DNA from: Bdellovibrionales bacterium
GTDB taxonomy: Bacteria > Bdellovibrionota_C > UBA2361 > SZUA-149 > JAGRAN01
Assembly: GCA_020434585.1 (NCBI GenBank)
Contig: JAGRAN010000012.1
Location: forward strand, 1 to 49,084
Direction: 5' to 3'
DNA length: 49,084 bases
Part shown: one piece after another, positions 9,903 to 30,748 of the stretch
Position numbering within the stretch: the first letter of the stretch is position 1
Layout: each line of letters opens with the position of its first letter
Position numbers and translations under genes: made by a program
The notes under the pieces: model-generated
Databases searched by the model: none
What the model was told of the DNA's origin: nothing
Seen by the model: only the letters and a program-made list of their open reading frames with translations

Positions 9903-12131
9903 TCAGTCGTAGCGAACGTGCGGGTTTGGCACTACTCGGCACTCAGTCGTTCCGTTGTATTCGACCTTGACTGTGATTGGAGCAAAATCGTCCATCTGGT
10001 TCGGATTCTTGTTCAAGAAAAAGTGCGGACGGTTATCGTTAGCCCCATTACAGTGCGATGAAGCCACTGAGGCCACGACATCTCCACTGCTCCCAAGAAT
10101 AGTCAATGTAAGCTGCTGACTATTGTGCAAACCGCAATATGGATTAGACGGAAGCAGGATAACTGTATTGCCCGTAGAGTCAGATTCTGGTTTCCACACC
10201 GCGCCTCCGCCGCCATCGACGAAGTCAGTGTCGGTTCCAGGTGAAGGATTACAGCCTGGCCCACCGGAGCCGCCGCCCGACTGACCTGCAACAACTGACC
10301 CGTCCGGTCTTACCAGTGAATGGGTTGAAGCGCCCCAAGCTACGGGAACAGTGGTCCCTGCGTAATTGCGCACGTAGAACGTACTCGTGCTCCCCGGACG
10401 ATAAACGCCAATTTCGCTGTAATTTACCCCCGAGTATCTGCCGCTAAGTGGTTTGTCTGTCGCCGCGATTCCGAACGGAACGACATCATAGATTCCTTCG
10501 GCGTAGCGTCGGTAGAAATACCAGGCACCGCCGACATTGCGCACAACGATAAAGTCCGCCCTGCCGTCTCCGTTGAGATCTACTGGCTCAAGATCGCTGT
10601 CACCAAGCAGCCCCCACTGGAAGGAATGATCGACTGCGGAGCCAGAACTAATTTCTCGGTAATACCAGACGATTCCACCAAGTGCCTGCACATCACGTGC
10701 AACTATCAGATCGTCGCATCCATTGCCGGTCACATCTGCGGCATAGATGCGATCACCAGCGAGGCCGAACGCATAGTTCGTCACACTCGGACCAGTGGAC
10801 AGTTCAATAAACCAATATAGCTGACCGTTTGTGTTGCGCACGACCGCTGGATCGGCTTTGCCGTCACAGTCGAAATCACCTGCAATCGGAATATCACCGT
10901 TGACCCCATGTTCAATCGAAGATTGGGTCCCATCGGGATTCAACCATTTCCAGCGCAGAGGAGGAGGATTCTGCTGCCCTACAAGTTCGACTCTTACGTA
11001 AACCGTTGCCGCCTGCGTTTTGCCATCGCCGTTATAGTCAGCCGGCACCAGGGCATCGCCTTGGTCGTTCACTACATAGGAGCTTTGAGCACCGGTAGAA
11101 TGCCGAACATTAAAGGTCGTAGTGTTAGCGGAGTCGTTGACTACTGCTGTAACGTAATCGCTTCTTCCGTCTCCGTCGTAATCACCTGGGGCTGGACCCG
11201 GTTCCTGCACACGCCCCCCAACCGGAGACGGTAAGTTTGCAGCAGATGAAAACGAGCCGGAAGTCATCGGTATCTGATAAAAAACATCCAGCGACGTGTT
11301 GATGAAAATTTCGTTGGTCCAGGGTCGATAAATAACACGATCCGCAGCTGGAGACTGGTCGACATTGCTTAGTATTAATTTGTCGCCGTTTAGACCCCAC
11401 TGCAGAGGACCAACTGCAGCACCAACCTGACCATTCACATACGAGGAGTTATAGAAAATAGAATTCGTCGAAGGCCTGTAGACTGCCGCTTCCACGCATC
11501 CATCTCCATCCCAGTCAGCACTCGCCGGAATATCTCCGATCAATCCAAAGTAGAAGTTATCTATTTGAAGGTCAGACGAGCGACGCAGCCGCCATTCGTT
11601 AGTGACGCGGTTGTAGGTCATTGCGTCAGCAGCACCGTCACAATCGTAATCGCCTGGAACTGCAATCGCACCCGGAGAGCCGTGAGTAAATGTTACTGCG
11701 TTTTGGCCATCGCAGTCAGCAACGGTCCACTGCGCATCCTTCTTGTCGTACGTGGCGTAGTTGGTGCAGCCTGCACCGTCATAATCTGCTATTACTGGCA
11801 AATCGCCCGGATTCCCCACCGTCACCGATTCAGATGCATTACCGTTAAGTACCGTATAGAAGTTAGACGTTGCCCGATCGTAGAGGCTGATATCGCTGGT
11901 GTTATTCCCGTCGAAATCCCCGATTAGCCCGACACGGCCCGCGGCGGCTTCAAAGTCAGTAACTGTAAGCGCGCCGGTGGAGCTTGCTCGCCAAAGAGCT
12001 TTCGCGCTTGATGAGTTAAATAGAATTAAGTCCTGATAAGGATCTCCGTCCAGAAAAGCCTGAGCCGCCGCCTGCTGGCACGGAAGTATGCATAAAAAGA
12101 TAAAGATTATGAGTGCTCTGTAACGGTTCAA
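9903..12131 (-). CDS. Secreted FG-GAP/VCBS repeat protein with WKP-type C-terminal domain
   Basis: The start is a TTG preceded by GGAGG with a 7-base spacer; no in-frame ATG lies before the signal peptide, which ends at about residue 24 (AAAQA). The mature protein of about 715 aa holds about ten FG-GAP-like blades, each with a calcium-loop pattern such as GDFDGNNTSD, GDYDCDGAAD, ADWDGDGCVE or DLNGDGRAD followed by V-x-R/Y and an aromatic strand, as in integrin-type beta-propellers. After a glycine-rich linker comes a domain of about 100 aa starting WKPESDSTGN with several cysteines. A related opening occurs in the lipoprotein at 47827. It is probably a surface or adhesive protein. Confidence 0.88.
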   Translation of the reverse strand: MNRYRALIIFIFLCILPCQQAAAQAFLDGDPYQDLILFNSSSAKALWRASSTGALTVTDFEAAAGRVGLIGDFDGNNTSDISLYDRATSNFYTVLNGNASESVTVGNPGDLPVIADYDGAGCTNYATYDKKDAQWTVADCDGQNAVTFTHGSPGAIAVPGDYDCDGAADAMTYNRVTNEWRLRRSSDLQIDNFYFGLIGDIPASADWDGDGCVEAAVYRPSTNSIFYNSSYVNGQVGAAVGPLQWGLNGDKLILSNVDQSPAADRVIYRPWTNEIFINTSLDVFYQIPMTSGSFSSAANLPSPVGGRVQEPGPAPGDYDGDGRSDYVTAVVNDSANTTTFNVRHSTGAQSSYVVNDQGDALVPADYNGDGKTQAATVYVRVELVGQQNPPPLRWKWLNPDGTQSSIEHGVNGDIPIAGDFDCDGKADPAVVRNTNGQLYWFIELSTGPSVTNYAFGLAGDRIYAADVTGNGCDDLIVARDVQALGGIVWYYREISSGSAVDHSFQWGLLGDSDLEPVDLNGDGRADFIVVRNVGGAWYFYRRYAEGIYDVVPFGIAATDKPLSGRYSGVNYSEIGVYRPGSTSTFYVRNYAGTTVPVAWGASTHSLVRPDGSVVAGQSGGGSGGPGCNPSPGTDTDFVDGGGGAVWKPESDSTGNTVILLPSNPYCGLHNSQQLTLTILGSSGDVVASVASSHCNGANDNRPHFFLNKNPNQMDDFAPITVKVEYNGTTECRVVPNPHVRYD

Positions 12132-26955: not shown

Positions 26956-28566
26956 TCAGTCTACGAAGTCGAGCAGTTTGTGCTGCGGATTTTGTTCGAG
27001 TGCGTACTGCTTTTCCCATTCGCGAACGCACAGCATAATCACCCTACCCTCACCGTCTTCGGCAAGCATTGCGCTCGAAGGCGGCTTAAAGGCTTTAGGG
27101 TCTCCGACTAGCCAGGCACCATAGCTATACGGGAGAGCGTCCAGCTGGGTTTCAACCCGATATTCTGTCTGCAGTCTAAACTGAAGCACATCGAACTGCA
27201 GCCTTCCGACCGCGGCGACAAGCGGCTCGCTGTTCGGCTGTCCGAACTTACGAAGGATCAACATTGCCCCTTCGTTTTTAAGCTGTTCAATGCCTTTATC
27301 AAAAGCCTTGCGCTTCATCAGATCCTTGGGCCGGATTTGCGCCACAACTTCCGGCGGAAACTTCGGCATCGGCTTAAACGAAAAACCGCCTTTGGTAGAA
27401 ATTGTGTCTCCGATAGCAAAGCTTCCAGGATTAACTACTCCAACGATATCACCTGGAAAAGCAGCATCGACTGTCGTGCGCTCGCCGCCGAACATGCTGT
27501 GAGACCGCGATAGTCTAACGTCTTTGGCGCTGCGCTTGTGCTTAACTACGAGGTCTCGCTCAAACTTGCCCGAATTGATTCTAAGAAAAGCCATACTGTC
27601 TCGGTGTTTCGGATCCATATTGGCTTGGATCTTAAAAACATACGCACTGAAATCCTCACTCACCGGCTCAACGATTGACTCCTCCCCACTGTCAAGAGTT
27701 ACCGGCCGGGCTGACGGAAACGGTGCCAACGAGGAAAAACGATCGAAAAACGGTTCCACCCCGAAGTTTGTGAGAGCAGAACCAAAAAATACCGGAGTTA
27801 CATCCCCGGCGAGAAAAGCATCTCGCGAAAACGGATTCCCGGCCTCGTTAAGCAGTTCAAGTTCATAGCTCGCTTGTTCGTGCAGTTCTGATGAAACCTT
27901 TCCGGAAGCAACAGCGTCTTCCATGCTAAGACGAGAAGATGCTGCCCGCTCGCTTCCACCAATCCCCTGTTTCTCAAACAGAATAACGTCGCCCGCCTCC
28001 CTATCGGCGACACCGACGAAAGCCTTTCCCGAACCTATCGGCCAATTAAGCGCCGAGGCCTGAATATCGAGAGCTTCTTCAACGTCCGCCATTAGCTCCA
28101 GCGGTTCGCGGCCCGGTAAATCCATTTTATTGATAAAAGTTAGAATTGGGATTCCGCGCATGCGGCAGACTGAAAATAACTTTCTCGTCTGCTCCTCGAC
28201 TCCGCTTGCCGCGTCAATTACCATTACAGCGCTGTCAGCCGCGGTCAGCGTGCGGTAAGTATCCTCAGAAAAATCTTGGTGACCGGGAGTATCAAGGACG
28301 TTTATTACCACGCCCTTGTAGAGAAACTGCATTGCCGAAGCCGTGATCGAAATACCGCGCTCGCGCTCCATTTCCATCCAGTCGGAGCTCACCGCCTTCC
28401 GCGCCTTACGACCCTTGACCATCCCCGCGGTCCGAATCATTCCAGCGTAAAGCAGCAGCTTCTCTGTGAGCGTCGTCTTGCCCGCATCTGGGTGACTGAT
28501 AATCGCAAATGTGCGTCGCAGCTTAGTTTGCGCTGCTATGACTCCAAGTTCACCTGAATCAGCCAT
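26956..28566 (-). CDS. prfC: Peptide chain release factor 3
   Basis: This is the 536 aa translational GTPase RF3, which removes RF1/RF2 from ribosomes after peptide release. The G-motifs are intact: G1 SHPDAGKT at 24-31, G2 RGISI at 70-74, G3 DTPGHQDF at 92-99 and G4 NKMD at 146-149. Length and the long domain 2-3 insertion agree with E. coli RF3 (529) and exclude EF-G. The start ATG is overlapped on its upstream side by a short frame for a small membrane protein. A GGQ-type rescue factor lies divergently upstream, so the locus concentrates termination and rescue functions. Confidence 0.95.
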   Translation of the reverse strand: MADSGELGVIAAQTKLRRTFAIISHPDAGKTTLTEKLLLYAGMIRTAGMVKGRKARKAVSSDWMEMERERGISITASAMQFLYKGVVINVLDTPGHQDFSEDTYRTLTAADSAVMVIDAASGVEEQTRKLFSVCRMRGIPILTFINKMDLPGREPLELMADVEEALDIQASALNWPIGSGKAFVGVADREAGDVILFEKQGIGGSERAASSRLSMEDAVASGKVSSELHEQASYELELLNEAGNPFSRDAFLAGDVTPVFFGSALTNFGVEPFFDRFSSLAPFPSARPVTLDSGEESIVEPVSEDFSAYVFKIQANMDPKHRDSMAFLRINSGKFERDLVVKHKRSAKDVRLSRSHSMFGGERTTVDAAFPGDIVGVVNPGSFAIGDTISTKGGFSFKPMPKFPPEVVAQIRPKDLMKRKAFDKGIEQLKNEGAMLILRKFGQPNSEPLVAAVGRLQFDVLQFRLQTEYRVETQLDALPYSYGAWLVGDPKAFKPPSSAMLAEDGEGRVIMLCVREWEKQYALEQNPQHKLLDFVD

Positions 28567-28742: not shown

Positions 28743-29159
28743 ATGGCAAGATTTCCAGTATCAAAGCAAAAACAGGCAGCGCTCGACGCGAAAATGAAAG
28801 AGCTAGGCATCAAGGAGGATGAGCTAATCGAGAAGTTCATTCGCGGCAGCGGCTCCGGCGGTCAGAAGATCAACAAAACCTCTTCCTGCGTATTCCTCCA
28901 GCATCCACCGAGCGGTATTGAAGTAAAATGCCAAAAGGACCGCTCGCGCGCACTTAACCGCTACTTCGCACGCAAATTGCTATGCGAGCGCTTGGATGAA
29001 AAGCTTAAAGGAAAGGAGAGCCGCAAGCAGCAGGAAGTCGAGCGCATACGCAGGCAGAAACGAAAACGAAGCAAGCGCGCCAAAGATAAAATGCTAGCTG
29101 ACAAGAAGCAGCAATCCACCAAGAAGGAAATGCGTAAAACTCCAAGCGGCGATTCGTAG
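28743..29159 (+). CDS. GGQ-domain ribosome rescue factor, RF-1-like
   Basis: This 138 aa protein has the RF catalytic loop GSGSGGQKINKTSS at 35-48 (GGQ at 39-41) and a long basic C-terminal tail (KRKRSKRAKDK). It lacks the stop-codon recognition domains of RF1/RF2. The composition fits peptidyl-tRNA hydrolases of the ArfB/YaeJ or mtRF-R (C12orf65) type, which release peptides from stalled ribosomes or split subunits. The basic tail would enter the mRNA channel. It is transcribed divergently from prfC across a 36-base gap to the microprotein frame. Confidence 0.88.
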   Translation: MARFPVSKQKQAALDAKMKELGIKEDELIEKFIRGSGSGGQKINKTSSCVFLQHPPSGIEVKCQKDRSRALNRYFARKLLCERLDEKLKGKESRKQQEVERIRRQKRKRSKRAKDKMLADKKQQSTKKEMRKTPSGDS

Positions 29160-29170
29160 CGCCACACTGA

Positions 29171-30577
29171 CTAACTCAATAGACTAAGTGCTATCGCCGG
29201 CTGATTGTTGGCCTGAGCAAGAATTGCCGCAGATGCCTGCTGCAGTAAGTTCAGCCTGATAAGCCTTGCCGACTCGAATGCAACGTCCGCATCTGTGATC
29301 TGCGACTCCGCCGATGCCATGTTTTCGGCAGATACTTGAAGCACTCCGACTGATGTTCCAATTCTACTTTGCGAGGCGCCGATGCGCGAGACTATCGTGT
29401 TTATCAAATCTAAATTTGACTCAAGACTGCTCAGCGCATCGAGCGCCGAGCTCTGAGTCTGCAGGGAAAAGCTTGATTGCTCGAGCGATTCACCCTCAAA
29501 GATAGTGCTGATGTATGTCTGCGTATCCTGAATCCGAATATTCGCGTCAGCTCCTGATGCCGTCACCTGGTCATTGACTCCGTCGTTGTTGAAGTCTCCG
29601 CTCTTTGTGGCTGAGTTGTTCGCGGTTACCATGCCGAGCTGAAATGTCAGTCCCGGGTTCATATTGAAGGTACCATCTTCGACGGTTCTGTTTTGAATGT
29701 ATCCCGTATTAATCGGCGAAGCCCCAGTACTTTGGACCTGAGTGAAAATTCTTAGGTCTAAGTCGCCGTCACCACCAATATCAAATAAATTTGCTTTAAT
29801 AGAAACGTCTGTAAGGACTCCTGTATAGGTGCTATCAAAGGTTGCAGTGTCATCCAAAGTAAAGGTCGTTCCCCCGTCCTCACCCAGGAAGAAGGCAATC
29901 TGTGTCCTGATTGTCCCGATAACTGGCTGCACCGCTTTTAATGCGACGATATCCTTTATGCCGTCATTATTAAGATCTCCGACTAGGAAAGTTGGAGCTT
30001 CCACAACGTTTACGTTCGCGCCCCATGAGCGTACATTGTCCGTATAGGTTCCCAGACCTTCGGTCACACTACCAACTGTAGTCTCACCTTCGCGAATCAG
30101 CGCGTTTAATACACCATTTCCGCCGAATCCTGCTTGAAGTGCAACCGAGCCTATCGTTCCATTCAGCAGATTCTGTCCGTTAAATTCAGTCGAGCTTAGA
30201 ATTCGTTCGTATTCTTCGAAGAGTGACTGCGCTTCTAAGTCTAATGCTGACCGCTGACCATCACTGAGCACGCCGTTAGCAGATTGCTCTGCAAGCTCGC
30301 GTTGTCTTATCACTATATTCGAAAGCTGCCCCAGGGAGCCTTCAGCGACGTTAAGTAGAGAAAGTCCGTCATTTAAATTGCGAACCCCTTGATAAAAAAC
30401 ACGCTTGTTAACTCCAAGAGAAGAGGCAACTGCAAGTCCGGCTGCGTCATCAGACGCACGATTGATGCGCAGCCCGCTCGAAAGGCGTTCGAACGTCGAT
30501 CCAAGCTCAGAGCTTGTTCGAGCGAGGTTGCGCTGCACCTGCAGCGAACTCAAATTACTGCCAATACGTATTGCCAA
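29171..30577 (-). CDS. Flagellin with FG-GAP calcium motifs in the variable domain
   Basis: This 468 aa flagellin has standard conserved termini: MAIRIGSN..., ERLSSGLRINRASDDAAGLAV at 30-50 and the C-terminal helix ending LLQQASAAILAQANNQPAIALSLLS. Between about 190 and 350 the outer D2/D3 region contains three FG-GAP-type loops: DLNNDGIKD at 201-209, DIGGDGDLDL around 266-275 and DFNNDGVND at 328-336. These are the calcium-binding loops of integrin-like propellers, unusual on a filament surface. The start is TTG after AAGGA. The second flagellin in the window (42121) is of ordinary size and lacks this insert, so this gene would encode a minor or adhesive filament type. Confidence 0.88.
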   Translation of the reverse strand: MAIRIGSNLSSLQVQRNLARTSSELGSTFERLSSGLRINRASDDAAGLAVASSLGVNKRVFYQGVRNLNDGLSLLNVAEGSLGQLSNIVIRQRELAEQSANGVLSDGQRSALDLEAQSLFEEYERILSSTEFNGQNLLNGTIGSVALQAGFGGNGVLNALIREGETTVGSVTEGLGTYTDNVRSWGANVNVVEAPTFLVGDLNNDGIKDIVALKAVQPVIGTIRTQIAFFLGEDGGTTFTLDDTATFDSTYTGVLTDVSIKANLFDIGGDGDLDLRIFTQVQSTGASPINTGYIQNRTVEDGTFNMNPGLTFQLGMVTANNSATKSGDFNNDGVNDQVTASGADANIRIQDTQTYISTIFEGESLEQSSFSLQTQSSALDALSSLESNLDLINTIVSRIGASQSRIGTSVGVLQVSAENMASAESQITDADVAFESARLIRLNLLQQASAAILAQANNQPAIALSLLS

Positions 30578-30748
30578 GGCAATCCTTGCCTGTTACTTCC
30601 GTTGCTTCCTTGCACGTACCCCTGCATCAAGCGCACCACGGGCGCATGACTACTTGGATATCCCTTTTAATATCGACGACTTAGGGCAATTACTAGAGTT
30701 CTAACAATTCTCTAGTCAATTTCATTGGTTACTGACCTGATTTGGCCG

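Follow-up and report, generated by a model that had tools for sequence, protein, structure and literature searches.

The flagellin gene P0001 (29171..30577, minus strand) appears to belong to a family of flagellins in which the exposed middle part has been replaced by blades of the FG-GAP/VCBS type and which would thus display calcium-stabilized, diversifying binding domains; the probability of this reading is put at roughly 55%. The typical member of the family carries a complete seven-bladed propeller, and P0001 itself is, as judged from its sequence, a shortened member with three blades. In the following, the whole stretch of 49,084 nucleotides that was analyzed is called the window.

P0001 has a TTG start codon and encodes a protein of 468 aa, which was identified from its open reading frame and from matches to the Pfam families Flagellin_N and Flagellin_C. 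The N-terminal D0/D1 half (residues 1-160; 30098..30577, minus strand) contains the Flagellin_N match at residues 6-141 (E 1e-31, 110.2 bits), and the C-terminal D1/D0 half (residues 367-468; 29174..29479, minus strand) contains the Flagellin_C match at residues 386-467 (E 3e-14, 53.6 bits). Both matches are above the cut-off, and both halves are helical in the structural model. Between them lies the insert (residues 161-366; 29480..30097, minus strand) with three repeats that resemble FG-GAP/VCBS blades. The original prediction had described three loops of the DxN/GxDGxxD type in the variable part of the protein, and these were found at residues 201, 266 and 328, i.e., DLNNDGIKD (residues 201-209; 29951..29977), DIGGDGDLD (residues 266-274; 29756..29782) and DFNNDGVND (residues 328-336; 29570..29596), all on the minus strand. 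When residues 190-350 were shuffled 200,000 times, three motifs were never obtained, and zero, one and two copies occurred in 198,166, 1,823 and 11 cases, respectively. P0001 and eight homologues were grouped into a short class of nine proteins, all of which matched both Flagellin_N and Flagellin_C. Loops 1 and 3 were present in all nine members (the first residue of loop 3 being N in one of them), and loop 2 was kept or slightly degenerate in eight, so that the motifs persisted in the orthologues instead of being lost. The second flagellin gene of the window, P0002 (42121..42978, plus strand), encodes a plain flagellin of 285 aa, which indeed lacks the insert, as had been claimed, and lacks the loops as well. 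Both genes lie outside any flagellar operon.

In P0001 the Pfam families FG-GAP_3 and FG-GAP scored below their thresholds (19.1 bits for FG-GAP_3 versus a cut-off of 26.9 bits). In a profile-profile comparison with hhalign, the insert aligned with three consecutive blades of a profile of the seven-blade paralogues (probability 98.7, E 3e-16), about equally well with the first or the last three, and the alignment included a GxGTYT linker that precedes the insert and is also found in the seven-blade class. The controls matched much less well: the reversed profile yielded an E of 0.0094 with a probability of 4, and column-shuffled profiles yielded E values of 0.3-0.8. Masking of the loops reduced the match to E 0.0025, and thus the loops carry most of the homology signal. 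An AlphaFold2 model of P0001, computed from an alignment of nine rows (A3), reached a pLDDT of 71 and a pTM of 0.45, with much of the insert at 65-79 and parts below 50. In this low-confidence region a strand-loop-strand-strand-strand pattern occurred three times, so the suggested structure prediction yielded blade-like repeats, but at low confidence. The 50 best Foldseek matches of the model were all flagellins. As the profile match is strong, though the model is weak and the signal is dominated by the loops, the insert is termed a predicted three-blade form of the FG-GAP/VCBS propeller. Of the integrin-type propeller that had been proposed, the homology to FG-GAP blades was thus upheld, and no closed propeller is claimed for the three blades.

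The genome from which the window is derived (3.80 Mb, 304 contigs, 94.4% complete, 3.75% contamination) contains 23 Flagellin_N matches, and 11 of its genes match a propeller-flagellin profile at E <= 1e-90. Ten frames of 614-648 residues were aligned, nine of which are complete while one (L022) runs off the contig end; the eleventh propeller flagellin (L016) is cut inside the insert by a contig end. Nine of the ten contain seven strict or near DxNxDGxxD loops and one (L012) contains six, with a spacing of about 48 residues and neighbours mostly 44-53 residues apart. Among 69 blades, which had been selected by the loop pattern, the loop aspartates were nearly invariant, and most other blade positions varied strongly. 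A close P0001 paralogue (L021, 475 aa from its ATG) also has three loops and is the second three-blade copy in the genome. It passes the FG-GAP cut-off of Pfam (33.3 bits), as does the seven-blade representative L020 (153.9 bits, 7 stretches), in which Flagellin_N and Flagellin_C are intact. Several of the flagellins share single contigs (the window contig and C33), and hence the multiplicity is not an artefact of mixed genomes. Plain flagellins are encoded as well (L009, L010, the fragment L023 and P0002). Two further frames differ from all of these: L024 (L024:1066-3012, contig C89, 649 aa) carries a PD40/WD40-like propeller insert without calcium loops, with PD40 above the cut-off and both flagellin families matched, and PD40-type flagellin inserts like this one were also seen in the genomes G001, G023, G024, G028, G044 and G045. 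L026 (contig C162) is a flagellin-like frame with an N stretch in the record, and its visible part is unlike the other flagellins.

The structure of the seven-loop protein L020 was predicted with higher confidence (pLDDT 80.9, pTM 0.72; AlphaFold2 with a ten-row alignment, A1). In the model, helices of the flagellin type flank about 28 strands, which is the number expected for seven four-stranded blades. For L020 a propeller of seven blades is thus predicted, framed by the helices of the flagellin. In a Foldseek search against the PDB flagellar filaments ranked first, followed by CRTAC1 and the seven-bladed lectins PVL and AAL2, and for the models of both P0001 and L020 the matches of the D0/D1 fold to flagellar filaments reached E values down to 1e-15. 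When the propeller of L020 was searched alone by sequence, PVL was the closest solved propeller (E 3e-8). The GlcNAc pocket signature N-x5-GGW-x4-H was absent from all ten propellers, each of which contains 0-2 tryptophans.

A search of relatives for the insert, as had been suggested, revealed at least 123 genes that match the full-length propeller-flagellin profile (E <= 1e-90); they are spread over 19 of the 46 genomes of the candidate phylum that were searched, with up to 19 per genome. All 46 genomes belong to one class, and these counts may be low, as no more than 28 candidates were scored in candidate-rich genomes. Samples of 395, 379 and 399 genomes (about 1,170) from three other phyla, those of a Desulfopila, a Myxococcales and an Uliginosibacterium genome, yielded no propeller flagellins with three candidates scored per genome. 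Among the named GTDB genomes, seven of the best 80 loci listed (L066-L072) have 6-7 loops; they come from HKST-UBA20, -25 and -28 (Bdellovibrionales bacterium), Co_bin.265 and 6_bin.32, and identical matches place these genomes in the same candidate phylum set. The other 73 loci comprised 70 with a readable flagellin frame and no or one loop, and three without a countable frame. A Desulfopila flagellin from outside the phylum matched the profile over its length and was ruled out, as it has no run of FG-GAP loops. In two flagellins of relatives other inserts were found (L184:2067-3422 and L188:2584-3858), each with a single EF-hand/dockerin-like stretch (DGELDAADFDAII and DYTGEGNVDASDTSIF, respectively) and without any Pfam domain above the cut-off.

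To place P0001 within the family, a quick tree was calculated with 99 rows from the D0/D1 residues alone; L024 and L161 have long branches in it, and details may move. One clade (support 97) unites the plain flagellins of the phylum, P0002 among them. A branch with support 89 separates them from every flagellin with an insert, also from the PD40-like L024 and from L040, which has another type of insert. The five short flagellins of the P0001 genus, two from the window's genome and three from a sister species, form a clade with support 100 that is nested among the seven-blade flagellins (93), and therefore the short form is most simply explained as a contraction. The short flagellins of the genome G020 were placed elsewhere in the tree, outside the P0001 clade.

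The ends and the inserts of these proteins diverged to very different extents. In G020 four propeller flagellin genes follow one another in the same orientation, with gaps of a few bases; the ends of these tandem copies are 88-96% identical versus 35-37% for the propellers. Orthologues in the sister species exhibited 71-83% identity in the ends and 33-56% in the insert. For most tandem copies dS at the ends was about 1, and dN was mostly 0.03-0.1 at the ends versus 0.62-0.73 in the inserts. On these estimates, the D0/D1 ends are under strong purifying selection, and the proteins combine a constrained shaft with a fast head, a pattern that by itself does not indicate positive selection. The divergence of the inserts may instead reflect relaxed constraint, as synonymous sites are saturated. 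Recent cassette swapping in the tandem arrays was considered and rejected: at synonymous sites the ends have diverged strongly, as have the inserts (dS about 1 or saturated), so that most of the contrast can be put down to unequal constraint. Gene conversion is suggested only by short near-identical patches in the ends. Standalone FG-GAP genes (385, 341, 323, 353 and 217 aa) were inspected as possible silent donor cassettes, and none is a loose flagellin cassette; several have a start that resembles a signal peptide, and most have WGL-type repeats.

A comparison of the promoters of the two flagellin genes of the window had been proposed; their leaders differ. In the leader of P0001 there are two hairpins with a GGA in the loop and in that of P0002 there is none. 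The first one (aggca-AGGAT-tgcct; 30577..30591, minus strand) abuts the start codon and holds the ribosome-binding GGA in its loop, and the second one (tgc-AAGGAA-gca; 30603..30614, minus strand) lies 25 nt upstream of the start; they are candidates for a first and a second CsrA site. A start-codon hairpin with a different stem is also present in the orthologue L037, and a GGA-loop hairpin occurs throughout the P0001 clade (five members), again with differing stems. Hairpins of this type with a stem of at least 4 were found in 18 of 59 leaders of propeller flagellins versus 13 of 245 other ORFs (p 4e-7, an optimistic value, as the sets include some duplicate loci and paralogues). The enrichment was weaker or not significant for six control triplets treated alike. 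The folding energy of the leader hairpins was overall no better than that of shuffled sequence. On contig C93 fliW (603-947) and csrA (1194-1346) are adjacent, and a flagellin/FlgL-like frame (2179-2568) is nearby. The products of csrA and fliW form a known circuit that controls the translation of flagellin (PMC6529632, PMC4894983). Because of the hairpins at the ribosome site and the neighbourhood of csrA and fliW, a CsrA-FliW switch is suggested as the probable control of the propeller flagellins. A scan for sigma-28 and sigma-54 promoters yielded no convincing site above shuffled sequence; -10-like words (GCCGATAA or GCCGATCA) were confined to L018 and L024, and far upstream of L013 and L010 there were sigma-54 matches with a score of 10. 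Rfam had no matches in the window. In the genome G005 a frame of 108 residues with two tandem CsrA domains (L189:1157-1480, contig C61) precedes two propeller flagellins, the first of them by about 1.8 kb.

The intact D0/D1 regions would allow export through the flagellar apparatus and polymerization, and the propeller would be left exposed on the surface of the filament. The filament would then present many binding domains, predicted to be stabilized by calcium, for the attachment to cells, glycans or surfaces, and the expression of the individual flagellin genes would determine the choice of subunits. The genomes that contain the family mostly encode many propeller flagellins together with plain flagellins of another lineage. 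In its best-known relatives the FG-GAP-type propeller fold is a binding scaffold. Since the GlcNAc pocket of PVL and AAL2 is absent, any ligand would be a different one. The flagella of Bdellovibrio are sheathed by a membrane, and the record titles at NCBI place the identified relatives of the window's genome in the Bdellovibrionales; a membrane sheath would hide the propellers, and this would be the strongest argument against a role in adhesion. An extended form of the display of binding domains is offered tentatively and would need some luck to be right: at least ten flagellins with a common shaft and different calcium-dependent heads would be co-polymerized or alternated under the control of CsrA-FliW, and the filament would become a polyvalent recognition array. 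If this were true, the swimming organelle would recognize and grip different ligands on prey, hosts and surfaces.

Four alternatives to the display of binding domains were weighed. The propellers could be structural, i.e., the outer domains would pack into a sheath or a rough surface and so determine how stiff the filament is and which waveform it takes, while calcium would stabilize the fold and no specific ligand would exist. In several flagellins the outer domains do form dimers or tetramers, and the resulting sheaths or screw surfaces influence motility (PMC8931119); moreover, the strongly acidic inserts (40-61 D/E versus 3-10 K/R) would suit calcium bridging; however, packing would favour conserved surfaces, and the tandem propellers are only about 36% identical versus about 90% for the shafts, nor does stiffness call for more than ten variants per genome, so that this explanation is regarded as rather unlikely. 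Unlikely to a higher degree is that the surface varies in order to escape flagellotropic phages, predators or the recognition by a host, with the propeller as a tolerant variable scaffold. The many paralogues, with a conserved shaft and a strongly diverged exposed part, would fit this case as well, but almost all blades have retained the fold and the calcium loops, as would be expected of a functional domain, and no silent flagellin cassettes were present among the standalone FG-GAP genes that were read, which encode proteins of another type. It seems improbable that the insert flagellins leave the cell via the flagellar channel and act as free or surface-bound proteins instead of filament subunits: although secreted flagellin-like proteins with a role in biofilms have been reported for Vibrio (PMC6692518), and although the flagellin genes of the window are not part of a flagellar operon, D0/D1 is complete and under strong purifying selection in most tandem copies (dN about 0.03-0.1 at dS about 1), and the models match filament flagellins. 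It is just as improbable that P0001 is in decay, having lost blades and its importance as a propeller flagellin, because its three of seven blades, its sub-threshold FG-GAP score and its position among seven-blade forms are offset by a fully supported clade with copies in two species, conserved loops, intact frames and retained GGA hairpins.

Flagellins tolerate inserted domains, and one enzymatic family has been characterized. In this family, flagellinolysin (FlaMP; PMC5595980), a foreign functional domain likewise resides in the hypervariable region, D0/D1 is intact, and plain flagellins are encoded alongside. In contrast, flagellinolysin is a metallopeptidase with an HExxH motif, which is missing from the P0001 insert, where calcium-loop blades were found and histidine is lacking altogether; furthermore, flagellinolysins are scattered across phyla by transfer, while propeller flagellins were found, among the genomes searched, in one candidate phylum only and with up to 19 copies per genome. 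The same study surveyed the hypervariable regions of flagellins in 2017 and reported 61 domains (Table 1); FG-GAP/VCBS is not among its ten most frequent domains, and an earlier sighting is possible in the full list, which is in the supplement. With the FG-GAP/VCBS propellers (PF13517/PF01839; PMC8023676) the proteins described here share the DxNxDGxxD interstrand loop, blades of about 48 residues and, in the model, seven blades with four strands each. The core VCBS members in that paper carry a signal sequence, whereas the propeller described here is embedded in a flagellin, and flagellin is not mentioned in its main text. The fungal GlcNAc lectins PVL and AAL2 (2bwr, 4tqj; PMC4483166) also have calcium sites and are among the best fold matches after the flagellins, but the signature of their pocket, as defined there, is missing from the ten propellers analyzed here. 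Full-text literature searches for a flagellin with FG-GAP or a beta-propeller yielded no description. A whole lineage of flagellins with a predicted calcium-loop propeller, at least ten copies in several genomes, conserved shafts and diverged heads would make two questions testable, namely the purpose of flagellar outer domains and the reason why many bacteria keep several flagellins, because the heads would have a defined binding fold. It would also be a natural design for the display of propeller domains on a self-assembling filament.

Several other genes of the window and the genome were recorded. The window also encodes a secreted FG-GAP repeat protein (9903..12131, minus strand) with a related repeat, which is not a flagellin (FG-GAP_3 65.5 bits, above the cut-off, 5 stretches); about ten blades had been claimed for it, and its translation shows nine or ten loops. 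Together with L030:2790-3743, L031:2314-3363 and L032:2428-3081 it represents the FG-GAP proteins apart from the flagellins, most of which have WGL repeats and several of which have a start that resembles a signal peptide. The genes adjoining P0001 encode the release factor RF3 (26956-28566) and a small protein with an RF-1 domain (28743-29159), which may be of the ribosome-rescue type.
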